A stretch of DNA of 64,000 nucleotides, taken from the NCBI RefSeq assembly GCF_011516645.4, contig NZ_CP088285.1, positions 6,652,501-6,716,500 of the forward strand, in the 5' to 3' direction. Both the position numbers and the translations under genes were made by a program. Origin of the DNA: Bradyrhizobium septentrionale (lineage in GTDB: Bacteria; Pseudomonadota; Alphaproteobacteria; Rhizobiales; Xanthobacteraceae). Below the pieces are notes generated by a model, which saw only the letters and a list, made by a program, of their open reading frames with translations, had not been told where the DNA came from and did no database searches. Positions 4,439 through 39,168 of the stretch are shown in pieces. Position 1 is the first letter of the stretch. Each line of letters opens with the position of its first letter.

Positions 4439-5164
4439 ATGACCCGTGAGGAACGACAATTGCGCGAGGCGATCATTGCCAAGTGTCGATGGATGAACGC
4501 GTCGGGTCTCAACCAGGGGACATCTGGCAACATCTCCGCCCGCTACAAGGACCGGATGCTGATCACGCCGTCGGCGACCCCCTATGATTCGATGAAGCCG
4601 GACATGATCGCGTCGATGCCGCTCGAAGGCGACTATGGCGCGTGGGAAGGGCCGCTGCAGCCGTCCACCGAATGGCGCTTCCATCTCGACATCACGCGCG
4701 CCCGGCCCGATGTCGGCGCCATCGTCCATACCCACTCGACCTACGCGACCGTGCTCGCGATCGCGCGCAAGCCGATCCCGGCCTGCCACTACATGATGGC
4801 GGCGTTCGGCGGCACCGACATCCGCTGCGCCGGCTATGCGCGCTACGGCACCAAGGAGTTGTCGGACCATGCGATCGCGGCGCTGGAAGGCCGCAATGGC
4901 TGCCTGCTCGCCAACCACGGCATGATCGCGCTCGGCGCCAATCTCGACAAGGCGATGTGGCTCGCGGTCGAGCTCGAGACCATCGCGCGGCAGTACTACC
5001 TCTCGCTCGCGCTCGAATCGCGCGTGATCCTGAGCGACGAGGAGATTGCCGACACCGCGAAGGGGTTCTCCACCTATGGCTTGCAGGCGCCAAAGCCGAA
5101 GGCCCGCGCGACGGCAAAGGCCGCGCCGCGTCGCGCCGAGAAGCGGCGTAGCGGCAGGCGATGA
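4439..5164 (+). CDS. Class II aldolase/adducin family protein (FucA/AraD-like)
   Basis: A 241-residue zinc-dependent class II aldolase or decarboxylase. The zinc ligands H97 and H99 (HTHSTYA) and H160 (LLANHGM) are present, as is the catalytic Glu E78 (PSTEW). Such enzymes cleave phosphoketoses to DHAP plus an aldehyde, or act as epimerases or decarboxylases. AGAGGAAAGG at 4421-4430 is a good ribosome site for the ATG at 4439. The last 25 or so residues are a Lys/Arg/Ala-rich tail not typical of the family. The stop overlaps the next start (ATGA). A paralogue at 38488-39168 matches at about three quarters of aligned positions by eye, so both probably handle related substrates. Confidence 0.87.
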   Translation: MTREERQLREAIIAKCRWMNASGLNQGTSGNISARYKDRMLITPSATPYDSMKPDMIASMPLEGDYGAWEGPLQPSTEWRFHLDITRARPDVGAIVHTHSTYATVLAIARKPIPACHYMMAAFGGTDIRCAGYARYGTKELSDHAIAALEGRNGCLLANHGMIALGANLDKAMWLAVELETIARQYYLSLALESRVILSDEEIADTAKGFSTYGLQAPKPKARATAKAAPRRAEKRRSGRR

Positions 5165-6721: not shown

Positions 6722-7594
6722 TTAAAGTATCTCGGCTAGCGAATGGCCGTGCAGTTCGATGTTCAGGCCCTGCATGCCGAGATCATTGATCTCGCCGCCC
6801 ATGGCCTTCAGGCTCTCCTCGCGGATCAGTGACATCAGTCCACGGCGCAGGGCCAGGAATTCCGAGGACATCATCATTGACTGCTGGCGCGGCCGCTCCA
6901 GTGGAATCGGGATTTCGGCCTTGATCGAACCGGGGCGGGCGGTCATGCAGTAGACGCGATCGGAAAGGAAGATTGCCTCATCAATGTCGTGCGTGACGAA
7001 CAGCACCGAAATCTTCAGCCGCTGCCACATGTTAGTGAGGATCTGCTGCATGATGACGCGGGTCTGCGCGTCGAGCGCGCCGAAGGGTTCATCGAGCAGC
7101 AGCACCTTCGGGCCCGTGGCGAGCGCGCGCACGATGCCGACGCGCTGCTTCATGCCGCCGGAGAGCTTTTCCGGATAGTGCTTTTCGAAGGCCTCGAGCC
7201 CGGAGAGGCCGAGCAGGGTGCGCGCGGCGCGCTCGCGCTGCGAGCGCGGCATGCCGCGCATCTTCAGGCCGAACTCGACGTTTTCCCGCACCGTCTTCCA
7301 GGGGAACAGCGAGTATTGCTGGAACACCATGCCGCGCTCGGCGCTGGGGCCGCTCACGCGCTCGCCGTCGACCGTGATAGTGCCCGTGGTGGGCTTGAGA
7401 AAGCCCGCCACCGCATTCAGGAACGTGGACTTGCCGCAGCCCGAAGGTCCGACGATCGACACGAACTCGCCCGGCTTCACATGGATGTAGGTGTCGGTAA
7501 CGGCCTGGACAGCCCCATCGATGGTCTCATAGCTCAGCGAGAAGTTCTTGACCTCGATATGCCCCTTCGGCGAGCCGGTCGCGATCTCGCTCAT
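6722..7594 (-). CDS. NitT/TauT-type ABC transporter ATP-binding protein
   Basis: A 290-residue ATPase of the nitrate/sulfonate/taurine import family (NrtD/SsuB/TauB-like). Walker A is GPSGCGKST, the signature LSGGMKQRV, Walker B LLLDEP and the H-loop FVTHDIDEA; it also has the family's FQQYSLFPWKTV Q-loop. The ATG at 7594 is chosen because it overlaps the permease stop (ATGA) and has GGAG six bases upstream; an in-frame ATG at 7606 is possible. The longer open frame to 8026 only overlaps the permease. The gene order binding protein, permease, ATPase on the minus strand is standard for one importer. The substrate is unknown. Confidence 0.9.
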   Translation of the reverse strand: MSEIATGSPKGHIEVKNFSLSYETIDGAVQAVTDTYIHVKPGEFVSIVGPSGCGKSTFLNAVAGFLKPTTGTITVDGERVSGPSAERGMVFQQYSLFPWKTVRENVEFGLKMRGMPRSQRERAARTLLGLSGLEAFEKHYPEKLSGGMKQRVGIVRALATGPKVLLLDEPFGALDAQTRVIMQQILTNMWQRLKISVLFVTHDIDEAIFLSDRVYCMTARPGSIKAEIPIPLERPRQQSMMMSSEFLALRRGLMSLIREESLKAMGGEINDLGMQGLNIELHGHSLAEIL

Positions 7595-8493
7595 TTTGAT
7601 CTCCATGGCATCACAAGGTGTCCCGTGCCGCGGATCAACAGGCTCGACCCGAGGCCGAGGACGCCAATCGCGATCATGCCGAGTGCGATGTCGGCATACT
7701 GGACCAACGAATAGGCTTCCCAGGTGAAGTAGCCGATGCCGTACTGACCCGAGATCATCTCGGCTGCGATCAACGATACCCAGGCCACGCCCATACCGAT
7801 CGTAAGGCCGGTAAAGATGTGCGGCAGCGATGCCGGGAAATACACCTCGCGGAAGATCGAGCGCTCGCGCGCCCCGAGACATTGCGCCGCCCGCACGAGT
7901 ACGGGATCGACGAGCGACATGCCGTGCAGTGTGTTGACCAGGATCGGGAAGAACGAGCCGAGGAAGGTGATGAAGACGATGCTCTGTTCGTTGGTCGGCC
8001 ACAACATGATCGCCATCGGGACCCACGCGATCGCCGGAATTGGCCGTAGCACCTCCGCCACGGGAAAGATCACCTCATGGATCAGCTTGAAGCGGCCCAT
8101 GATGAGGCCAAGCGGCACACCGACGATGGCCGCGAGCGAGAAGCCGATGAAGATGCGCCGGCAGCTCAGCAGGATGTGCACGAGGAACTTGGGGTCGTGG
8201 ATCGCCTTGGTGAAGCTCGCATAGACCGCAAGCGGCGAGGGCACGTTGGTGAAGCGCACGAAGAACACCACACGGTAGGTCGTGAGCAGGTGCCAGACCA
8301 GGAGAAATGCGGCCAGCGAGACGATACCGATTGCGGTTGCGCGCAACCGGTCCTGGTTGAGCCGGTACCAGCGCGCCGCCAGCGCGCCGAAGGAGGCGGA
8401 CGGGGCCGCGGTGGGCGGGGAGGTCGTCTCCTGGATCGCAGGCACTGCTGGCCCGTTGTCCTCGGGCTGTCTGAGGAGGGCGGGAGTGCTCAC
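7591..8493 (-). CDS. NitT/TauT-type ABC transporter permease
   Basis: A 300-residue inner-membrane permease (SsuC/TauC/NrtB-like). A soluble Pro/Ala-rich N-terminus of about 55 residues is followed by around six membrane segments. The EAA coupling motif appears as AAQCLGARERSIFREVYFPA, followed by the family's conserved LPHIFTGLTIGMG. The start overlaps the binding-protein stop, and the stop overlaps the ATPase start, so the three genes are translationally coupled. It forms the channel for the substrate captured by the binding protein encoded just upstream. Confidence 0.9.
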   Translation of the reverse strand: MSTPALLRQPEDNGPAVPAIQETTSPPTAAPSASFGALAARWYRLNQDRLRATAIGIVSLAAFLLVWHLLTTYRVVFFVRFTNVPSPLAVYASFTKAIHDPKFLVHILLSCRRIFIGFSLAAIVGVPLGLIMGRFKLIHEVIFPVAEVLRPIPAIAWVPMAIMLWPTNEQSIVFITFLGSFFPILVNTLHGMSLVDPVLVRAAQCLGARERSIFREVYFPASLPHIFTGLTIGMGVAWVSLIAAEMISGQYGIGYFTWEAYSLVQYADIALGMIAIGVLGLGSSLLIRGTGHLVMPWRSK

Positions 8494-9911
8494 GTCTTGC
8501 CTCCGCCGATCGCCGCCTTCAGTGCATCATCGAAGCCGAGCACCTTGCCGCCGATCGTTGCGGCATAGGCCTCGGCGTCCTTCTTGAGCAGGAAGGGCAC
8601 CACGTCCCCGTTACCCACTGCGAAAAAGGCCTGGTCCGCGAACAGCTTGATGCCGCGGGTGGTGTCGAAGACATAGGCGACGTTGATTTTCTTGCCTTTC
8701 GCCTTGTAATCGGCATAGGCGCCGAGCGTGCACGCCGCGGATGCAAACGGCAGGATGCCGATCCCGTCGACCCAGACCTCGCCGGCCTTGCGCGGATCGG
8801 AGATCGGCTTCTTGCAGAACGTATCCTCGCCGGAAATCTCGTAGTTCTTCGTGCTCGAAAGCTGGGCGTCGTAGTCGAGCTTCATCTCGGCATAGGCCTT
8901 GCGGATGTAGCTGTCGTCGACCCATTTCTTCGGGGCGAATTCCTTCATGCGGCCGAGATTTTGCAGCACCTTGACGTCGGCCGTGGCCGCATCGATCAGC
9001 GCCGGTTTGATCGTGGGATCGGTGGTCATGTTGCCACCCGGGCCCAGGAAGATATAGACGACCTCCTTGCTGATCCCGGTCCATTCCTGGATCTTCTCGG
9101 CGGCGCGCTTGGGATCGTCACGCAGCCACTGATTGGCGGCGATCACGGCCTTCATGTAGGCGACGACGACTTCCGGATATTTTTCCGCGAAATCGGTGCG
9201 AACCACGATACCGTGGAAGGTCGGCAGGTTGGTCTCGACGCCGTCGAAAATCTTTCGCGCGAAGCCGCGGAAAGGAAGCAGCTCGGCGAAGGGGACGAAG
9301 TCGGCGTGGGCGTCGATCTTCTTCTCCTGGAGATTGGTCGAACCAACCTCGGGGCTCTGGCTGACGAGCTGGAAGAAATCCGGTGCATAGCCGCGGTCCT
9401 GCATTGCCTTCAGCACCATGCCATGCGCGGCGGAGCCAAAGGGAACGCTGACGAGCTTGCCCTTGAGATCGGCGAGATCGTAGTAGGGTGAGTCCTTGTG
9501 AACGACGATGCCATTGCCGGAGCCGGAGAGGCTGTAGGCGGCAACGCCGATCAGGCGGCTCTTGCTCTCGGGGTTGCTCTCGAAGGTGAAGCCGTTCACG
9601 ATCAGCGGATAGTCGCCCATCATGCCGATCTGAAGCTTGTTCGCCATCATCGCATTGGTGACAGGCGGGCCGGACGTGAAATTCTGCCACTCCAGCTCGA
9701 ACTTGATGTTGGCGTATTTGCCGTCTTTCGGCAGATACTTTTCGAGGAGATGCAGCTGCCGGATGACGACGCCGGCCGTGACGGTGTTGGTCGTCGTGTC
9801 CTGCGTTCCGATGCCGAGCGTGACGGTTTCCGCCGAAGCCGGCTGCGCCAGAAATAGCGCCAGCGACGTCACCGACACCACTAGCGAGAACGTGGGAAGA
9901 TGGCGGACCAT
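8490..9911 (-). CDS. ABC transporter substrate-binding protein with C-terminal NosL-like domain
   Basis: A 473-residue periplasmic protein. Residues 1-27 form a Sec signal peptide ending PASA. The body is an NMT1/SsuA-like binding domain (TLGIGTQDTTTNTV at its start, IGMMGDYPLI, VPFGSAAHG). From about residue 359 to the end, after a Cys (DTFCKKP), lies a segment unlike the family's usual end: VAYVFDTTRGIKLFADQAFF and GGKVLGFDDAL match the pattern I know from NosL, the copper-binding accessory protein of nitrous oxide reductase. That makes it over 100 residues longer than typical relatives. GAGG six bases before the ATG at 9911 decides the start; ATG 9917 has no spacing. An AACTAATCGAC element lies about 90 bases upstream. 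Confidence 0.82.
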   Translation of the reverse strand: MVRHLPTFSLVVSVTSLALFLAQPASAETVTLGIGTQDTTTNTVTAGVVIRQLHLLEKYLPKDGKYANIKFELEWQNFTSGPPVTNAMMANKLQIGMMGDYPLIVNGFTFESNPESKSRLIGVAAYSLSGSGNGIVVHKDSPYYDLADLKGKLVSVPFGSAAHGMVLKAMQDRGYAPDFFQLVSQSPEVGSTNLQEKKIDAHADFVPFAELLPFRGFARKIFDGVETNLPTFHGIVVRTDFAEKYPEVVVAYMKAVIAANQWLRDDPKRAAEKIQEWTGISKEVVYIFLGPGGNMTTDPTIKPALIDAATADVKVLQNLGRMKEFAPKKWVDDSYIRKAYAEMKLDYDAQLSSTKNYEISGEDTFCKKPISDPRKAGEVWVDGIGILPFASAACTLGAYADYKAKGKKINVAYVFDTTRGIKLFADQAFFAVGNGDVVPFLLKKDAEAYAATIGGKVLGFDDALKAAIGGGKT

Positions 9912-9998
9912 TCTCATCCTCTTTCGGTTGGATGTGCTGTGGTTGCCATGATTGGATGGGGAGGCGGGCACGGCAAATCCGGATTTATCGCCGCTGTC

Positions 9999-10011
9999 GA
10001 TTAGTTGCCGG
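9999..10011 (-). promoter_or_regulatory. AACTAATYG element upstream of the binding-protein gene
   Basis: On the minus strand this reads CCGGCAACTAATC, followed by GACAGCGG. The core AACTAATCGAC is identical to the copy at 11503-11513, and AACTAAT recurs at 11421 and 12392. It lies about 90 bases before the start of the binding-protein gene. Candidate operator for a regulator of this module; the CRP-type protein encoded at 10080-10856 is the obvious candidate, but that is inference. Confidence 0.5.
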
Positions 10012-10079
10012 GAAATGCCGGTTGCTTACTCCTTGTGCAGTTTTGCCGGTGAAAGCCAATTGCATGTGCAGCATCGGTG

Positions 10080-10856
10080 TCAATCGGACGCCTGGCCCCG
10101 CATCTCCTCCAGGACCTCGGACCGGCAGACCACGATCTGCGAACGTTTGGTCAGGACGATTCCCTTCTCCTGCATGCGCTTCAGGCTGATCGTCACCCAT
10201 TGCCTTGTGGCGCCGACCATGTGGGCGATGTCCGCATGGGTGAATGCCGCCGCAATCACGGTGCCGTCGGCGTCCTGCACGCCGTAGAGCTCGACGAGCT
10301 GCAGCAACAGATGCGCCAGGCGCTGGGTGATCGACCGCGTTCCCAGCATCTGGGCGAGCGCGGAGTAGCATTTGCCCTTGAAGGTGAGGCCTTCGATCAG
10401 GCCGATCGCAAGGTTCGGGATCTCCGCCGCCAGCGCGCGCAGCTCCTTTCCGGGCAGGTGTACGACGCTGCAATTGCTGGAGGCGACGCCCGACCATTGA
10501 TGAACGGTGCCTTCGAACACCTCGGGCCCGCCGACGAAATTGCCGACGTGCCAGTAGGCGAGCGTGATCTCGCGCCCCAGCGGCGAGATGTAGAAGACGC
10601 GGATACGGCCGCTCTCGACCAGCCAGATGCCGTCGTGTCTGGCACCTTGGCTGAACAGCGTCTGGCCGCGATTGAGCACCTTGCGACGCCCCTGCTTCAA
10701 GACCAGTTCCCGTTCGCGCGACGTGAGCTTGTCCATCAGCGGCGGCGGCCCGCCGATCCATTGCTGGTTCTCGGTCAACAGCAGCGAGGACCCGCCCGCA
10801 GGCCGAACCGTGACGGGAATGGTCCCGCGAGCCGCACTGGCCGCCTGTAGCAACAT
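10080..10856 (-). CDS. CRP/FNR-family transcriptional regulator
   Basis: A 258-residue regulator with an N-terminal cyclic-nucleotide-binding-type beta-roll (LFSQGARHDGIWLVESGRIRV) and a C-terminal winged helix-turn-helix (THADIAHMVGATRQWVTISLKRM). There is no N-terminal Cys cluster, so it is not an FNR-type iron-sulfur sensor; the effector is unknown. The ATG at 10856 has GGAGG seven bases upstream and is preferred over the longer frame to 11000. It sits between the transporter and the redox genes and probably controls them, perhaps through the AACTAATYG elements, none of which precedes this gene itself. Confidence 0.85.
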   Translation of the reverse strand: MLLQAASAARGTIPVTVRPAGGSSLLLTENQQWIGGPPPLMDKLTSRERELVLKQGRRKVLNRGQTLFSQGARHDGIWLVESGRIRVFYISPLGREITLAYWHVGNFVGGPEVFEGTVHQWSGVASSNCSVVHLPGKELRALAAEIPNLAIGLIEGLTFKGKCYSALAQMLGTRSITQRLAHLLLQLVELYGVQDADGTVIAAAFTHADIAHMVGATRQWVTISLKRMQEKGIVLTKRSQIVVCRSEVLEEMRGQASD

Positions 10857-10869
10857 CGAGCCGCCTCCG

Positions 10870-10886
10870 AACCGTTCAAACCGTTC
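10870..10886 (-). repeat. Tandem 8-base repeat upstream of the CRP-type regulator
   Basis: AACCGTTC occurs at 10870-10877 and again at 10879-10886 (plus strand), one base apart, just upstream of the ribosome site of the regulator gene. On the coding strand this reads GAACGGTTTGAACGGTT. It could be an autoregulatory site or a promoter element; nothing else supports a function. Confidence 0.4.
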
Positions 10887-11065
10887 TAAAGAGGAGCAAT
10901 GTCCGTGCCAGAGCGGGTTGGCAAGTGGGGGACGGCCGGCCGTTGAGGCCAGCGTCATGTCGAGACTGCACCAAGTGTGCCGGCCCGGAAAGTTCATCAC
11001 TGAAAACGAGGGATATATGGAATAGGGGTTCGCCCGTCGGGGCCCCGGATAGAAGGGAAGATCGG

Positions 11066-11371
11066 TTAGTGTCCTGCCAGGCTCAACAGATAAATTTTTG
11101 GGTAGATTCCGCGATTGTGCCCGTCGGAGAACGAGATGTTGAGCCCGTAGCCCAAATCGCCGATCCCGGTGATCGCGATGCCGGGAAATTGTTCGGGGAA
11201 GCGGCCGTCAAAGCGGGCGCGGGTGCAGTGGGCGCATTTGCAGGCGAGGCGAAGCTGCTCCGCGCTGAGCGTCACCTCATCATCGCGCGCAGTGCGCACG
11301 AGGAGTGTCGCGAGATCGGCGCTGGCCTCGTAGCCGGTCACGGTCGGCGCCACCAATGCGGTCATGGTCAT
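11066..11371 (-). CDS. DUF971 (GBBH-like N-terminal domain) protein
   Basis: A 101-residue protein resembling DUF971, the small domain also found at the N-terminus of gamma-butyrobetaine hydroxylase and beside iron-sulfur assembly proteins. The sequence shows a CKCAHCT cysteine cluster that could bind zinc, and the family's typical end (ISFSDGHNRGIYPKIYL). GGAGG six bases before the ATG supports the start. It is read toward the CRP-type gene, and its upstream region is shared with the ferredoxin reductase gene on the opposite strand. A role as a metal or iron-sulfur accessory for the redox module is inference. Confidence 0.75.
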   Translation of the reverse strand: MTMTALVAPTVTGYEASADLATLLVRTARDDEVTLSAEQLRLACKCAHCTRARFDGRFPEQFPGIAITGIGDLGYGLNISFSDGHNRGIYPKIYLLSLAGH

Positions 11372-11412
11372 GACGATCCTCCACCGTCTTTCCTGACACC
11401 GAAGCTACGGAC

Positions 11413-11433
11413 GCAATAGCAACTAATTGCCGG
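11413..11433 (+). promoter_or_regulatory. AACTAATYG element in the divergent DUF971/fpr promoter region
   Basis: GCAACTAATTGCCGG at 11419-11433 shares CAACTAATTGC with 12391-12401. It also holds an inverted repeat, GCAAT at 11413-11417 and ATTGC at 11426-11430, separated by 8 bases. It is 42 bases upstream of the DUF971 start and 162 bases upstream of the ferredoxin reductase start, so it may serve either gene. Confidence 0.5.
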
Positions 11434-11501
11434 ATCCGGCGTGACGTCGCGGTCCTCGCAGACGCGGGTGCCTGCCTGGCGGTCATCGCACGCAAAATGT
11501 G

Positions 11502-11513
11502 AAACTAATCGAC
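11502..11513 (+). promoter_or_regulatory. AACTAATYG element upstream of ferredoxin reductase gene
   Basis: AAACTAATCGAC shares 11 bases (AACTAATCGAC) with the element upstream of the binding-protein gene. It lies 82 bases before the GTG start of the ferredoxin-NADP reductase gene. Candidate operator of the same regulon. Confidence 0.45.
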
Positions 11514-11594
11514 CGGGAACGGCAGTTCGCCGTTGCCGGATCCGCCTCTCTCCGAAACCTTGGTCCCGCATCGAGCAAGCATGGAGAGACGAGC

Positions 11595-12368
11595 GTGAGC
11601 GCTTTTCAGAAGGAAACGGTCCTCTCGGTCAGGCACTGGACCGAATCCCTGTTCAGCTTCACGGCGACGCGCGATGCCGGCTTTCGCTTCCAGAACGGCC
11701 AGTTCGCCATGATCGGGCTCGAGGTCGATGGCCGCCCCTTGATGCGCGCCTACAGTCTGGCGAGCGCCAATCACGAGGAGGCGCTCGAGTTCTTCAGCAT
11801 CAAGGTGCCGGATGGTCCTCTGACCTCGCGGCTGCAGAGGATCAGGGAGGGCGACATCATCCTGGTCGGCCGCAAGGCGACGGGAACGCTGATCGCCGGC
11901 AATCTCATCCCGGGCAAGCGGCTCCTGCTGCTGTCGACCGGCACGGGGCTCGCACCGTTCGCGAGCTTGATCAAGGACCCGGATGTCTATGAGAGCTACG
12001 AGACCATCGTGCTCGCCCATGGCTGCCGCCAGGTTTCGGAGCTGGCTTATGGAGAGCACCTCGTCGAGAGCCTGTGCAACCACGAATTCCTCGGTCCACT
12101 GATCAAGGACAAGCTGATCTATTACCCGACCGTCACCCGTGAGCCCTTCAGGAACCGCGGCCGCATCACCGACCTGATCACTTCCAACCAGCTCTTCGAC
12201 GACATCGGGCAGCCCGCTCTCGACCGCGAGTCCGACCGCATCATGCTCTGCGGCAGCCCTGCGATGCTCGAAGAGCTCCGCGAGCTGTTCACGGCGCGTG
12301 GCTTTGTCGAGGGCAACCACAGTCAGCCGGGTCATTTCGTGATCGAGAAGGCCTTCGTGGAGCGGTGA
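11595..12368 (+). CDS. fpr: Ferredoxin-NADP(+) reductase
   Basis: A 257-residue FAD enzyme moving electrons between NADPH and ferredoxin. The FAD motif RAYSLAS, the NADP-binding LLSTGTGLAPF and the C-terminal NHSQPGHFVIEKAFVER match the proteobacterial Fpr subclass, and the length equals that family's usual size. I chose the GTG at 11595 (Fpr proteins typically begin SAFQKETV...) with GGAG eight bases upstream; the open frame runs back to 11499 without homology. Two AACTAATYG elements lie upstream. In this setting it probably supplies reducing power, through the small ferredoxin at 14302, to the APS-reductase-like flavoprotein. Confidence 0.9.
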   Translation: MSAFQKETVLSVRHWTESLFSFTATRDAGFRFQNGQFAMIGLEVDGRPLMRAYSLASANHEEALEFFSIKVPDGPLTSRLQRIREGDIILVGRKATGTLIAGNLIPGKRLLLLSTGTGLAPFASLIKDPDVYESYETIVLAHGCRQVSELAYGEHLVESLCNHEFLGPLIKDKLIYYPTVTREPFRNRGRITDLITSNQLFDDIGQPALDRESDRIMLCGSPAMLEELRELFTARGFVEGNHSQPGHFVIEKAFVER

Positions 12369-12390
12369 AGGGCAAATCGCTCTCCGGCGA

Positions 12391-12401
12391 CAACTAATTG
12401 C
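12391..12401 (+). promoter_or_regulatory. AACTAATYG element upstream of the flavoprotein gene
   Basis: CAACTAATTGC, identical over 11 bases to 11420-11430. It sits within a longer imperfect palindrome (GGCGA at 12386, TCGCC at 12404). It lies 72 bases before the ATG of the APS-reductase-like gene, just after the ferredoxin reductase stop, which suggests a separate promoter here. Confidence 0.5.
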
Positions 12402-12472
12402 TATCGCCGTGGGACCACCCGGGCAAAGCTCATGTAAAGGCGCCGGTCGCGCCGGCGAAACAGGGACAGACA

Positions 12473-14215
12473 ATGGCACTAGATCAGATCGTCGACGGAC
12501 TTTCGGAGGTTTCCTGTGATGTGCTGGTGATCGGTGGCGGCACGGCCGGACCGATGGCGGCGCTCAAGGCCAAGCTCAAAAATCCGAAGGCCGATGTCGT
12601 GCTGCTTGAAAAGGCCAACGTCAAGCGTTCCGGCGCGATCTCGATGGGCATGGACGGGCTCAACAACGCCGTCATTCCGGGCTATGCAACGCCCGAGCAG
12701 TACACCAAGGAGATCACGATCGCCAACGACGGTATCGTCGATCAGAAGGCGGTCTATAAATACGCCCAGAACTGCTACAAGATCATCGAGGAGCTCGACA
12801 GTTTCGGCATCCGCTTTCTGAAGAACGAGAACGGCGACTTCGCCGTCAAGAAGGTGCACCATATCGGGACCTACGTGCTCCCGATGCCGAATGGCGAGAC
12901 CGTGAAGAAGGCGCTGTATCGCCAGCTGCGCCGCGCCCGCATCCTGATCTCAAACCGCTATATGGCGACGCGGTTGCTGAAGTCCGCCGATGGCCGCGTG
13001 GCCGGTGTGATCAGCGTCAATACGCGTACCGCCGAATTGCTGGTGATCAAGGCGAAGGCCGTGATCCTGTGCATGGGCGCCGCCGGCCGGCTAGGACTTC
13101 CGACCTCGGGCTACATGTTCGGGACCTACGAAAACGCCGCCAATTCCGGCGACGGCTATGCCATGGCCTATCATGCCGGCGCTGCGCTCGCGAACCTCGA
13201 GTGCTACCAGATCAATCCGTTGATCAAGGACTACAACGGTCCGGCCTGCGCCTATGTGGCTGGCCCTTTCGGCGCCTATACCGCGAACAACGAAGGCTCA
13301 CGCTTCATCGAATGCGACTACTGGTCGGGCCAGATGATGCTCGAATTCTACAATGAACTGCTCTCGGGCAAGGGCCCGGTCTTCCTCCAGCTCAAGCACC
13401 TCCACGAGAAGACGATCGAGGAGATCGAGTCGACACTGCACAAGGTGGAGCGGCCGACGCGCGGCCTGTTCCAGCAGGGGCGGGGGGTCGATTATCGCAC
13501 CGACTCGATCGAGATGCACATCTCCGAGATCGGCCTCTGCTCCGGCCACAGTGCGTCCGGCGTATTCGTCGACGACAACGCGCGCACCACCGTGCCGGGC
13601 CTTTACGCCGCGGGCGACATGGCGAGCGTGCCGCACAATTACATGCTGGGCGCCTTCACCAACGGCTCCGTTGCCGGCACCGACGCGATGGAGTTCGCCG
13701 AGAGCCACGATCTCGCGGAATTTGACCCCGCTTCTGTCGCCCTTGAGCGGGAGCGCATCCTGGCGCCGACCAAGCGTGAGGACGGCATTCCGCCGAACCA
13801 GATCGAGTACAAGACCCGCCGCCTGGTGAACGACTATCTCCAGCCTCCGAAGGTCACCCGCAAGTACGAACTCGGTATGCGCCGTCTCGCCGAGGTCCGC
13901 GAGGACATGGAAACGCGCATGATCGCGCGGAACGCGCACGAACTGCTCCGTGCGCTCGAGGTGCAGTCGATCATGGATTGCGCCGACATGGCGGCTCACG
14001 CCTCGCTGTTCCGCGAAGAAAGCCGCTGGGGCCTCTATCATTGGCGCACGGATTTTCCGGAGAAGGACAACGAGAACTGGTTCTGCCACACGCTGCTGTC
14101 CAAGCAGGACGGCAGGATGACGAGCACGAAGCGCGCCGTGGAACCCTATATCGTGCCGATCGCCGACGACGAGAAGGACCTCTACGACAAGCAACGCATC
14201 CGCGCCAGCGCGTGA
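12473..14215 (+). CDS. APS-reductase-like (AprA/fumarate reductase family) flavoprotein
   Basis: A 580-residue FAD oxidoreductase of the fumarate reductase/succinate dehydrogenase superfamily, closest by motif to the AprA branch. The N-terminal Rossmann motif is GGGTAG (21-26). GMDGLNNA at about 60-66 keeps the Asn I associate with the AprA active-site segment. GLYAAGDMASVPHNYMLGAFTNGSVAG is the C-terminal FAD-binding motif. It is shorter than classical AprA (about 640 residues). It is followed by a ferredoxin with two [4Fe-4S] sites, the equivalent of AprB. No sat, qmo or dsr genes are nearby, so respiratory APS reduction is unlikely. The substrate, perhaps an oxidised sulfur compound brought in by the adjacent importer, is inference. 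Confidence 0.8.
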   Translation: MALDQIVDGLSEVSCDVLVIGGGTAGPMAALKAKLKNPKADVVLLEKANVKRSGAISMGMDGLNNAVIPGYATPEQYTKEITIANDGIVDQKAVYKYAQNCYKIIEELDSFGIRFLKNENGDFAVKKVHHIGTYVLPMPNGETVKKALYRQLRRARILISNRYMATRLLKSADGRVAGVISVNTRTAELLVIKAKAVILCMGAAGRLGLPTSGYMFGTYENAANSGDGYAMAYHAGAALANLECYQINPLIKDYNGPACAYVAGPFGAYTANNEGSRFIECDYWSGQMMLEFYNELLSGKGPVFLQLKHLHEKTIEEIESTLHKVERPTRGLFQQGRGVDYRTDSIEMHISEIGLCSGHSASGVFVDDNARTTVPGLYAAGDMASVPHNYMLGAFTNGSVAGTDAMEFAESHDLAEFDPASVALERERILAPTKREDGIPPNQIEYKTRRLVNDYLQPPKVTRKYELGMRRLAEVREDMETRMIARNAHELLRALEVQSIMDCADMAAHASLFREESRWGLYHWRTDFPEKDNENWFCHTLLSKQDGRMTSTKRAVEPYIVPIADDEKDLYDKQRIRASA

Positions 14216-14221
14216 TTCTTG

Positions 14222-14272
14222 TTTGACGCGTTTTCTTCGCGCGAACCGGTATCCACTTCGCTCGAGAACGCT
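14222..14272 (+). repeat. Dispersed Bradyrhizobium-type repeat (partial copy)
   Basis: The 51 bases beginning TTTGACGCGTTTTCTTC and ending in TCGAGAACGCT match the reverse complement of 45911-45962 closely. I recognise this as a very common intergenic element of Bradyrhizobium genomes. Here it lies between the flavoprotein stop and the ferredoxin start and could affect readthrough or mRNA stability. Only the first half of the element is present; the second hairpin seen at 45974-46010 is missing. Confidence 0.7.
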
Positions 14273-14301
14273 TTCGCGGCACAACAACAGGAGATTGGAC
14301 G

Positions 14302-14535
14302 ATGCCTCTCGCTTCCTATCAGACGTCGGTCCCGGTGGTGGTCGACGACGCCAAATGCATCGCGGACAAGGGCTGCACGGTGTGCGTCGACGTCTGCCCG
14401 CTCGATGTCTTGCGGATCAGCGACATGACAGGCAAGGCCTACATGGCCTATGACGAGTGCTGGTACTGCATGCCGTGCGAGGCGGATTGCCCGACCGGCG
14501 CCGTCACCGTCAATATCCCCTATCTGCTGAGGTGA
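14302..14535 (+). CDS. 2[4Fe-4S] ferredoxin-type protein (AprB-like)
   Basis: A 77-residue protein with two cluster motifs: C19-X5-C25-X2-C28-X3-C32-P, and C53-X2-C56-X2-C59-X3-C63-P. The five-residue spacing in the first motif is unusual and recalls the AprB subunit, but the protein lacks AprB's C-terminal tail. It is the likely electron partner of the flavoprotein encoded just before it, fed by the ferredoxin reductase. AGGAG eight bases upstream supports the ATG. It is followed after 2 bases by the HEAT-repeat gene. Confidence 0.88.
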   Translation: MPLASYQTSVPVVVDDAKCIADKGCTVCVDVCPLDVLRISDMTGKAYMAYDECWYCMPCEADCPTGAVTVNIPYLLR

Positions 14536-14537
14536 AC

Positions 14538-15515
14538 ATGTCGAGCCCGTTCGAATCCTACGACGATCTCGAGGACGCCGACGAGCGGCTGCAGGCCGCA
14601 GACCCCGCCGAACGCCGCGTCGCCATCATCGCGCTCGGTCATTCCGGCGATTCCGCCGCGGTCGGCCATCTTGCCAGGATGGTGTCCGATCCTGATGCCG
14701 GTGTGCGCCAGCAGGTCGCGATGGCGCTTGGAGAGTTCGATGGGCCGGACGCGGCTGATGCCCTGGCGAAATTGCTCGTCGACCCCGAGAGCGTCGTGGC
14801 GTCGGCGGCAGCCGACAGCATGGCGGAGTTCAAGGATCCCGCCTGCGCGGACGTCATCCTGCCGCTGGTCAAACATGCCCATGCGTTCGTCCGCATGGGC
14901 GCATTGCGCGCGCTGAAGGAGCTACGCCGCAAGGACACGCTGAAGCCGGCGCTGGAGGCGTTGCAAGACCAGGACGCCGCCGTGCGTGTGCAGGCGATCG
15001 GCGTCATCGGCTTCCTGAAGCTCGAGGAGTCCATTCCGGCGCTGACCGCGCTGATCCACGACCCTGACGCCCATGTGCGGCGCGCGGCGGTGAGCGCGCT
15101 CGCTTTCTCGCAGATGAGGCCGGCGGCGGAGACGATCACGCGTGCGCTCAAGGACGAGGACTGGATGGTGCGCGAGATGGCGGCCGAAACGCTCGGGCTC
15201 AACGCCAACGGTGCGCTGGCGGCGGATCAGCTGATCGCGTCGCTTGCGGACGGGTTTTGGCAGGTGCGGCTCAAGGCGGTTCGCAGCCTCGGCAAGATGA
15301 AGATCGAGGGCGCGGTGCGCCCCATAGGCTATTGCGTCAACCACGAGCAGGCCAACCTGCGCAAGGAAGCTGCCGCGGCGTTGGGCGAGATCGCTCATCC
15401 CGATGGCGAGGCGTTCCTGGCGATCGTTGCCGACGATCCCGATCCCGATGTCAGAAAGAACGCGCGCTGGGCCCTTCAGCAGATCGTGGCGAAGAAGGCG
15501 AAAGCGAAATCGTAG
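14538..15515 (+). CDS. HEAT-repeat (PBS lyase-like) protein
   Basis: A 325-residue all-helical protein made of about nine HEAT/PBS-lyase-type repeats of roughly 31 residues (typical units AVGHLARMVSDPDAGVRQQVAMALGEF and SIPALTALIHDPDAHVRRAAVSALAF), with a Lys/Ala-rich end. Such proteins are scaffolds or act in cofactor attachment; no catalytic motif is seen. GAGGTGA just upstream of the ATG at 14538 includes the ferredoxin stop, so it is translated with the ferredoxin. I infer a scaffold or maturation factor for the flavoprotein-ferredoxin complex. Confidence 0.85.
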   Translation: MSSPFESYDDLEDADERLQAADPAERRVAIIALGHSGDSAAVGHLARMVSDPDAGVRQQVAMALGEFDGPDAADALAKLLVDPESVVASAAADSMAEFKDPACADVILPLVKHAHAFVRMGALRALKELRRKDTLKPALEALQDQDAAVRVQAIGVIGFLKLEESIPALTALIHDPDAHVRRAAVSALAFSQMRPAAETITRALKDEDWMVREMAAETLGLNANGALAADQLIASLADGFWQVRLKAVRSLGKMKIEGAVRPIGYCVNHEQANLRKEAAAALGEIAHPDGEAFLAIVADDPDPDVRKNARWALQQIVAKKAKAKS

Positions 15516-38487: not shown

Positions 38488-39168
38488 TTATGGTGTTGCG
38501 TTCGCCTTGACCGGCGGATCCTGTACGCCGTAGCTGCCAAATGCAGCGGCGGTTTCGCTGATGTCGGCCTCGCTCAGCAATACCGGTCCACCGATCGCCA
38601 GGGAGAGATAATATTGCCGGGCAATGGTCTCGAGTTCGACCGCCAGCCACATCGCCTTGTCCAGTGATGTCCCCGTGGCGATCATTCCGTGATTGGCCAG
38701 CAGGCAGGCGGTGCGATTCTCCAGCGCTTTCAGTGCATGCTCGGATAGTTCCTTGGTGCCGAACCTGGCATAGTCGGCAACACGCACGTTCATGCCGCCA
38801 AAGGCCGCCATCATGTAGTGGCATGCCGGGATCTCCTTGCGCGCGATCGCCAGCACGGTGGAATAGGTCGCATGGGTATGGACGATACCTCCGACGTCGG
38901 GTCGCGCTTTCATGATGTCGAGATGGAAGCGCCATTCGGTGGAGGGCTTGAGCGGACCGCGCCATGATCCGTATTCGCCTTCGATCGGCATTGCCGCGAT
39001 CATATCGGGCGTGAGCAGGTCGTAAGGCGTTGCCGACGGTGAAATCAGCATGGTGTTACCGTGGCGGGCGGAGATATTTCCGGACGTGCCCTGGTTCAGC
39101 CCCGTGGCATTCATCCAGCGGCATTTCGCGATGATCGCCTCGCGCAACTGAAGTTCACTGTCGGTCAT
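38488..39168 (-). CDS. Class II aldolase/adducin family protein (paralogue of 4439-5164)
   Basis: A 226-residue zinc-dependent class II aldolase or decarboxylase. Zinc ligands H97, H99 and H160 and the catalytic E78 are at the same numbers as in the paralogue at 4439, with about three quarters identity by eye. It lacks that protein's Lys/Arg tail. It is the last gene of a minus-strand operon with the SDR and AraM-like genes and converges on DhaK. The likely role is cleavage of a phosphorylated ketose to DHAP and an aldehyde, or a related reaction. Confidence 0.87.
   Translation of the reverse strand: MTDSELQLREAIIAKCRWMNATGLNQGTSGNISARHGNTMLISPSATPYDLLTPDMIAAMPIEGEYGSWRGPLKPSTEWRFHLDIMKARPDVGGIVHTHATYSTVLAIARKEIPACHYMMAAFGGMNVRVADYARFGTKELSEHALKALENRTACLLANHGMIATGTSLDKAMWLAVELETIARQYYLSLAIGGPVLLSEADISETAAAFGSYGVQDPPVKANATP

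Follow-up and report, generated by a model that had tools for sequence, protein, structure and literature searches.

The stretch analysed here (the window) comprises 64,000 nucleotides of Bradyrhizobium septentrionale DNA (contig NZ_CP088285.1) and carries, within a genome of 10.4 Mb, a module of nine genes (6722–15515) in which a flavin adenine dinucleotide (FAD) protein of the AprA superfamily is combined with a two-cluster ferredoxin, a HEAT-repeat protein and an ABC importer. The gene set is real and recurs across genomes beyond chance. We rate it as a redox pair of the AprA type coupled to a sulfonate-type importer, and the reading that we favour, at a probability of about 0.48, is an accessory sulfur-scavenging module: an imported sulfo compound would be reduced by the AprA-related flavoprotein with release of sulfite. 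The genes for the importer, a CRP-type regulator and a DUF971 protein lie on the minus strand, and those for ferredoxin-NADP reductase (Fpr), flavoprotein, ferredoxin and HEAT protein on the plus strand.

With the window's own proteins as queries, the core five genes were found at 18 of 20 flavoprotein loci in proteobacterial genomes, several of them from Bradyrhizobium, compared to none of 20 other places in the same genomes (control regions, 20 + 20 places, were picked at round coordinates). The 20 flavoprotein loci hold genes for the HEAT protein (20), ferredoxin (20), DUF971 protein (19), ATPase (19), binding protein (18), permease (18), CRP regulator (10) and Fpr (9), compared to eight ATPase genes, one permease gene and no HEAT, ferredoxin, DUF971, binding protein, CRP or Fpr gene in the 20 control places. 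The core was also present in 65 of 66 named loci and in 19 of 20 of those outside Bradyrhizobium; the named loci, chosen as the best 80 among at least 515 relatives, are biased to close relatives, and the 66 with at least 21 kb were counted. Bradyrhizobium provides the nearest named relatives at the locus. On plasmids, 17 of 19 regions chosen from 50 plasmid matches contain the core, one region (L170) being without annotation. The importer counted at a few loci, in Hyphomicrobium, is of the SsuABC type. The flavoprotein family is uncommon, with 21 positive genomes among 398 sampled from the phylum and 10 positive genera among 212, and the module ranges over alpha-, beta- and gammaproteobacteria, Acidithiobacillus, cyanobacteria and actinobacteria. 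The flavoprotein family often lies on plasmid-filed records, and the 50 such records extend from Sinorhizobium, Rhizobium and Paraburkholderia to Acidithiobacillus, Nostoc, Pseudanabaena, Leptolyngbya and Tsukamurella. A class III aminotransferase gene beyond the HEAT gene and a glpD-like gene upstream occur at none of the 20, 66 or 19 test loci, and the module therefore ends at those borders.

These counts bear on an original prediction, made from the window alone, that had named the gene families and proposed a search for conserved neighbourhoods. Pfam and NCBIfam searches recovered all of the families at about the positions given, and the genes co-occur far outside the source genome. The gene list itself, which spanned 8490–15515, has to be extended by the importer permease and ATPase (6722–8493), as these are also module members. 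Fpr and the CRP regulator, conversely, are optional, since they were found at 9 and 10 of the 20 loci, respectively, and GntR/UTRA or LysR regulators occur in other loci.

The flavoprotein is a full member of family NF006131 (1062.7 bits, cut-off 587). AprA-type models reached 279 bits (NF005331) and 157.2 bits (TIGR02061, below its cut-off of 641.75), and models for SdhA/FrdA proper at most 176.7 bits, all far below cut-off. The nearest solved structures are the alpha chain of the AprBA-like 3'-phosphoadenosine 5'-phosphosulfate (PAPS) reductase of Methanothermococcus thermolithotrophicus (8a8o, 259.5 bits), followed by AprA of A. fulgidus (194 bits). In adenosine 5'-phosphosulfate (APS) reductase, according to PMC2211403, Asn74 and His398 hold the sulfate oxygens, Arg265 and Trp234 act via water, Arg317 and Leu278 clamp the adenine, and FAD N5 attacks the sulfur; the same mechanism is proposed for PAPS reductase in PMC10322725. 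Alignment of AprA with the flavoprotein (A. fulgidus numbering, counted by hand on the alignment) showed Asn74 and His398 to be kept as N64 and H359. Arg265, Trp234, Val273 and Gly274 are replaced by L250, Y219, A258 (S in one sequence) and C259, respectively, and Leu278 by A, T or G at position 263. Residues N64, H359, L250, Y219 and C259 are invariant in 34 flavoproteins; the Arg265, Trp234 and Leu278 columns are R, W and L in 9/9 AprA rows (nine of ten AprA loci, L173 being left out), and PAPS reductase keeps Asn, His, Arg and Trp. In three SDH/NadB-type proteins of the source genome the Asn64 column is S, A or a gap. The Asn/His pair that holds the sulfo group is kept and much of the nucleotide pocket appears to be lost, as would be expected for a non-nucleotide sulfo substrate.

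The AprA/FrdA tree proposed earlier placed the flavoprotein outside the characterised AprA/PAPS reductase group and outside SdhA/NadB. A branch of 6.96 changes per column separates AprA and PAPS reductase from the flavoproteins. The latter, 25 in number, are not one clade in this tree because the long outside branches attach inside them, and the exact rooting is not fixed. On model scores, residues and tree, two candidate identities were rejected, that of a fumarate reductase or succinate dehydrogenase and that of an APS or PAPS reductase. An AlphaFold model of the flavoprotein was too poor for use (mean predicted local distance difference test score 52.7). The statement that AprAB, Sat and Qmo are missing stands for AprA, as no match was found in the source genome at E 1e-100; Sat and Qmo were not searched for. 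The description of the ferredoxin as AprB-like has become weak: among solved structures, polyferredoxin-type chains (40.6–41.8 bits) outscore AprB (34.6 bits). As a separate observation, the source genome holds a succinate dehydrogenase-like match (G000:C2:9676317–9678035) with one TAA stop inside.

The import of an oxidised sulfur (sulfo) compound is moderately supported by four agreeing lines, namely the fold of the binding protein, SsuA/SsuD neighbours, YeiH/TauE genes, and sulfur genes around plasmid copies. An earlier guess of a sulfur substrate hereby gains independent support from the binding-protein fold and the SsuA/SsuD, YeiH and TauE neighbours. The binding protein consists of a TauA/SsuA-type lobe (about residues 47–375) and a NosL-like C-terminal domain (about residues 395–490), an architecture common to 34 aligned sequences including cyanobacterial and actinobacterial ones (tail judged by eye). 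SsuA and TauA are its best structural matches, i.e. the fold is of the SsuA/TauA type, and the CmpA, NrtA and Thi5 folds score near these. Pfam identifies an NMT1/THI5-type domain, and the NCBIfam scores lie below cut-off for SsuA_fam (120.9 of 163.5 bits) and TauA (70.9 of 304.25 bits). The best NCBIfam model of the importer ATPase is SaoA (262 bits, 360 needed), likewise under the equivalog cut-offs shown. For the NosL-like tail, the window protein scores 21.4 bits (Pfam cut-off 24) and the cyanobacterial protein of L126 29.2 bits. A beta-beta-alpha-beta pattern is predicted for this tail; no structural match was listed for it, the long lobe filling the match list, with matches covering residues 47–374 alone.

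In Hyphomicrobium (L102), genes for SsuA and SsuD, both above curated cut-offs, adjoin the flavoprotein–HEAT pair, and the same arrangement was read in L103; in Rhodomicrobium (L119), SsuA lies beside the module. Counts of SsuA over the loci are not usable because the module's own binding protein matches the SsuA query. The YeiH gene is convergent with the ATPase gene in 29 Bradyrhizobium loci, stands before Fpr in L088–L090 and L094, behind Fpr in L106, L107, L118 and L123, and behind the CRP gene in L125. In three cyanobacterial plasmids, YeiH follows Mrp or TauE. Distances were measured to four module genes; for two of 40 YeiH genes, the closest of these four is 2.0–2.4 kb away. YeiH or TauE was found at 13 of 60 loci compared to 2 of 40 controls, a modest excess, and it is the varied positions of YeiH rather than this excess that make its case stronger. 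The Rhodopseudomonas locus L095 includes a gene for a TauE/SafE sulfite exporter (PF01925, 102 bits), which is convergent with the HEAT gene and is preceded by an exact GCAACTAATTGC about 80 bases before its start. A tblastn search retrieved TauE from 0 of 80 named loci; this search is insensitive, since Pfam reveals TauE in L095. Sulfur genes surround several of the plasmid copies. A further observation concerns a Sinorhizobium chiapasense plasmid (L132:18882–19472), on which a nodA-family gene is found close to the module, together with sulfate, sulfonate and TauD genes.

The order of the genes varies freely among loci and their content is constant. Both actinobacterial records examined show the flavoprotein and the HEAT protein fused, as a single 893-residue chain in Tsukamurella and as a single open frame of 939 residues in Nonomuraea. 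This is the architecture of NCBIfam model NF010374, the C-terminal part of which is matched by the window HEAT protein (89.2 bits). Given the fusion, HEAT protein and flavoprotein are most likely physical partners, and the fusion is compatible with a scaffold role, as suggested at the outset, or a partner role. In four cyanobacterial plasmids the DUF971 protein is absent and an Mrp/NBP35 ATPase gene follows the HEAT gene (Pfam for L126). DUF971 proteins are known partners of Mrp-type carriers, and this replacement suggests that the DUF971 protein likewise serves the loading or maturation of [4Fe–4S] clusters. Genes for FdxA-type ferredoxins occur at 15 of 80 named loci, mostly adjoining Fpr or HEAT, and at 0 of 40 controls. 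A GntR/UTRA regulator is part of 17 of the 47 loci that were clustered out of 100 (L036 and L112 are one organism). It follows the HEAT gene in nine alphaproteobacterial loci, precedes the flavoprotein gene in eight loci outside the class, and is also found before the flavoprotein gene in annotated copies from Paraburkholderia, Cupriavidus, Aquabacterium, Acinetobacter and Acidithiobacillus.

Several loci contain additional genes. A long LysR-type regulator adjoins the module on cyanobacterial plasmids (L126:9388–11424, L127:9646–11661, L161:9661–11661); in L126 it has a C-terminal NMT1-type binding-protein domain (Pfam) and could be a cytoplasmic sensor of the imported compound. A conserved membrane protein, for which a Pfam search of the L118 and L107 copies gave no match, is encoded between the permease and ATPase genes (L118:17156–17872, L107:14889–15596, L101:16760–17575); genes for SCO1, PCuAC and cytochrome c are present at these loci as well. 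In Nostoc edaphicum (L160:14986–21141), genes for two HAD hydrolases, a methyltransferase, a GNAT protein and a VOC protein are inserted between those for flavoprotein and ferredoxin, and methionine-synthesis and YeeE/YedE genes lie downstream.

The regulator combines a cNMP_binding (57.1 bits) and an HTH_Crp_2 domain (53.2 bits), both above cut-off, and features an unusual recognition helix, TRQWVT, which is conserved as TRQW(V/A)T in 27/27 clustered homologues. With at most one mismatch, CAACTAATTG occurs at four sites in the window, three of them inside the module, compared to 0.74 expected. Four copies of the element stand in front of the genes for binding protein, DUF971, Fpr and flavoprotein, in agreement with the shared element before four genes that had been reported initially. 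Conservation was followed in 47 Bradyrhizobium loci (L046–L091, L096, L100 and L109, minus L079 and L080), which are close relatives and hence not independent observations. A GCAACTAATTGC-type element (at most two mismatches) lies upstream of the flavoprotein gene in 47/47 and of the DUF971 gene in 47/47; upstream of the binding protein gene the element, as GCAACTAATCGA, is kept in 42/47, and AAACTAATCGAC before Fpr is exact in 41/47. In its full form, GCAAYTAATTGC, the element is an inverted repeat similar in size to that of FNR, and repeats related to it (GCAATTTATTGC, GCAAGTAATTGC and GCAAATAATTGC) stand before the DUF971–flavoprotein and binding protein genes in Rhizobium, Sinorhizobium, Mesorhizobium and Afipia loci with a CRP gene. 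Among 11 Bradyrhizobium genomes, the CRP and flavoprotein genes are both present in seven and both absent in four. One of the seven, G398, has a partial flavoprotein match (564 bits) that lies at the end of a contig and contains one TAG, and identity of the CRP relatives is just 45–58% in G398 and G401. It may be this CRP protein that binds the element.

A whole-genome operator scan revealed no clear regulon. Exact copies of RCAACTAATTGC occur twice in the genome, both in the module, and its 21 rows with at most one mismatch (exact included) are not above the control (25); SCAAYTAATYGM gave nine rows at seven places, two in the module, compared to two in the control. The source genome has a second Fpr gene (L157:4339–5112; G000:C2 about 3517340) preceded by a perfect palindrome, GCAATTAATTGC. 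This site (L135/L157) was rejected as evidence for the regulator, as it is also present in one Bradyrhizobium without the module (L224 in G407). In another Bradyrhizobium locus (L093:16970), an extra exact CAACTAATTGC follows a separate set of NitT/TauT-type importer genes at a distance of about 50 bases.

For the sulfur-scavenging module we propose the following sequence of events. The TauA/SsuA-type ABC importer would take up a small oxidised sulfur compound (a sulfonate, sulfate ester, S-sulfo or related sulfo compound). Judging from gene content, electrons would pass from NADPH via Fpr and ferredoxin to FAD: NADPH would reduce Fpr in the cytoplasm, Fpr the 2×[4Fe–4S] ferredoxin, either directly or via the FdxA ferredoxin encoded alongside at some loci, and the 2×[4Fe–4S] ferredoxin would feed the FAD of the AprA-related flavoprotein. 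By analogy to APS reductase, the N5 of reduced FAD may attack the sulfo sulfur, the organic part would leave, and sulfite would be freed for assimilation; reductive direction, N5 chemistry and product are all modelled on this precedent. Surplus sulfite or sulfate could exit by YeiH or TauE/SafE where encoded. The HEAT protein would act as physical partner of the flavoprotein, DUF971 or Mrp/NBP35 may help to load the iron–sulfur clusters, and a dedicated CRP-type or GntR/UTRA-type regulator would turn the gene set on. Several observations weigh against a sulfur substrate: at least five plasmid copies (L129, L133, L165, L166, L169) are without a nearby sulfur gene, a YeiH/TauE match is absent from the source window, and thiamine genes flank the Rhizobium acidisoli copy. 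The Fpr gene of the proposed electron path is not always near the module (found at 9/20 loci). A more specific version is doubtful, in which the family would form a widespread and so far unrecognised third AprA-type branch, a HEAT-bound, NADPH-fed FAD/2×[4Fe–4S] reductase for O2-free reductive desulfonation of a sulfo compound that is imported and is not a nucleotide. Plasmids would have spread this alternative to the SsuD/TauD oxygenases among proteobacteria, cyanobacteria and actinobacteria.

The same proteins could also operate in the oxidative direction, with the flavoprotein dehydrogenating an imported organosulfur compound, or oxidising sulfite, and electrons flowing via ferredoxin and Fpr to NADP+. 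AprA enzymes are reversible and sulfur oxidisers have been suggested to run AprA backwards (PMC2211403). YeiH is annotated as a putative sulfate exporter, and the cytochrome c and copper-chaperone genes of one locus group would suit an electron outlet. However, the AMP-binding residues required for the oxidation of sulfite to APS are changed, and a low-potential 2×[4Fe–4S] ferredoxin with Fpr appears to fit electron delivery better than removal, so that we regard oxidation as unlikely. The chances are similarly small that the reduced compound contains no sulfur at all, e.g. a nitro, unsaturated or heterocyclic nitrogen compound imported by a nitrate- or HMP-like member of the NitT/TauT family. 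This would agree with the NMT1/THI5-type domain, with the CmpA, NrtA and Thi5 folds that score near SsuA/TauA, with the thiamine genes by the R. acidisoli module, and with amidase or amidohydrolase-like genes by others (in part judged by eye), but the SsuA–SsuD, YeiH and TauE associations and the top structural matches indicate sulfur.

A role of importer and redox proteins in serving copper, or the assembly of a copper enzyme, is improbable. A NosL-like tail is present in 34/34 aligned binding proteins, and SCO1 and PCuAC occur in 11/47 and 9/47 clustered loci, respectively, yet the window tail remains below the NosL cut-off (21.4 of 24), the Met, His and Cys residues that we take to be the copper ligands of NosL are not conserved in the aligned tails, and SCO1 and PCuAC are found in 0/19 plasmid regions and 0/13 further non-Bradyrhizobium loci. 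Even less probable is a second APS or PAPS reductase for assimilatory sulfate reduction, akin to that of Methanothermococcus. Albeit the two closest structures are of this kind, Arg265, Trp234, Val273, Gly274 and Leu278 are all replaced, whereas PAPS reductase keeps Arg and Trp. Moreover, APS arises inside the cell, so that its import would serve no purpose. The fumarate reductase or succinate dehydrogenase implied by the database name has hardly any credibility: name and superfamily membership speak for it, but the nine genes include no membrane anchor or classical iron–sulfur subunit, and the SdhA/FrdA models trail NF006131 by far. Moreover, the arginine of the GARGEGG segment of succinate dehydrogenase has no counterpart in the aligned flavoprotein segment, although the succinate dehydrogenase rows (source genome) are long-branched and the alignment is less sure there.

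The features of the module are compiled in Table 1. The Fpr frame opens at 11499, and its conserved start, by likeness to relatives, is the GTG at 11595. Elsewhere in the window, two similar class II aldolase-like proteins (by eye) are encoded on opposite strands (4439–5164 and 38488–39168).

Table 1. Genes and DNA elements of the module, in window coordinates.
Feature	Position	Strand	Remarks
ABC importer ATPase, TauB/SsuB/SaoA-like	6722..7606	-	Pfam ABC_tran 117 bits; start read from sequence
ABC importer permease	7591..8493	-	BPD_transp_1 91 bits
Substrate-binding protein, TauA/SsuA-type lobe and NosL-like C-terminal domain	8490..9971	-	true start probably about 9917
CRP-type element GCAACTAATCGA, upstream of importer genes	9997..10008	-	
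CRP/FNR-family regulator	10080..10859	-	Pfam; open frame to 11000, conserved part from about 10859
DUF971 / GBBH-like N-terminal domain protein	11066..11371	-	Pfam PF06155
Putative operator GCAACTAATTGC, between DUF971 and Fpr genes	11419..11430	+	
Fourth element AAACTAATCGAC, upstream of Fpr	11502..11513	+	
Ferredoxin-NADP reductase (Fpr)	11595..12368	+	NAD_binding_1/FAD_binding_6; NF008178 137 bits, cut-off 390
Putative operator ACAACTAATTGC, upstream of flavoprotein	12390..12401	+	
FAD protein, family PRK08275/NF006131, AprA superfamily, 580 aa	12473..14215	+	
Two-cluster [4Fe–4S] ferredoxin, 77 aa	14302..14535	+	
HEAT-repeat protein	14538..15515	+	HEAT_2 194 bits

The flavoprotein itself is not new, as its family already has a database model under a misleading name. 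A description of the module, its sulfur link, the regulator and operator, or the altered AprA active site was not found in the open-access PubMed Central literature, subscription journals and preprints being outside the scope of this search. If the sulfur-scavenging reading is true, the database name, fumarate reductase/succinate dehydrogenase, hides an enzyme system by which many bacteria of soil and water or associated with plants gain access to a sulfur source, and the redox chemistry of this system is unlike that of the SsuD/TauD oxygenases. The family would then show APS reductase chemistry moved to a new substrate, and inform the evolution of FAD N5 sulfo chemistry.

Among known systems, models NF006131 (PRK08275) and NF010374 (PRK13800) cover the flavoprotein, as a full member of the former, and the flavoprotein::HEAT fusion, respectively; both carry the fumarate reductase/succinate dehydrogenase name, and no tested function was found in the open literature. 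With CRP/FNR regulators such as FNR, FixK and NtcA, the module regulator shares the cNMP-type and HTH_Crp_2 domains, and its 12-bp inverted repeat, GCAA-N4-TTGC, lies near the presumed targets; the TRQWVT helix and the operator differ from what we take to be the CRP, FNR and NtcA consensus. SsuABCD and TauABCD have a related importer, the fold of the module's binding protein being nearest to SsuA/TauA and SsuA and SsuD genes being adjacent in Hyphomicrobium. In contrast to these systems, the importer proteins of the module score under the SsuA, TauA, TauB and SsuC cut-offs, the NosL-like tail is extra, and an FAD/Fe–S redox pair is present where Ssu and Tau have an FMNH2 or Fe(II) oxygenase. 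AprBA and the PAPS reductase 8a8o share with the module an AprA-superfamily FAD subunit with a 2×[4Fe–4S] ferredoxin partner, and the Asn74 and His398 positions are kept. Compared to AprBA, however, the module flavoprotein has its Arg265, Trp234, Val273, Gly274 and Leu278 contacts replaced, the ferredoxin of 77 aa is not nearest to AprB, and the module adds an importer, a HEAT protein and often Fpr.

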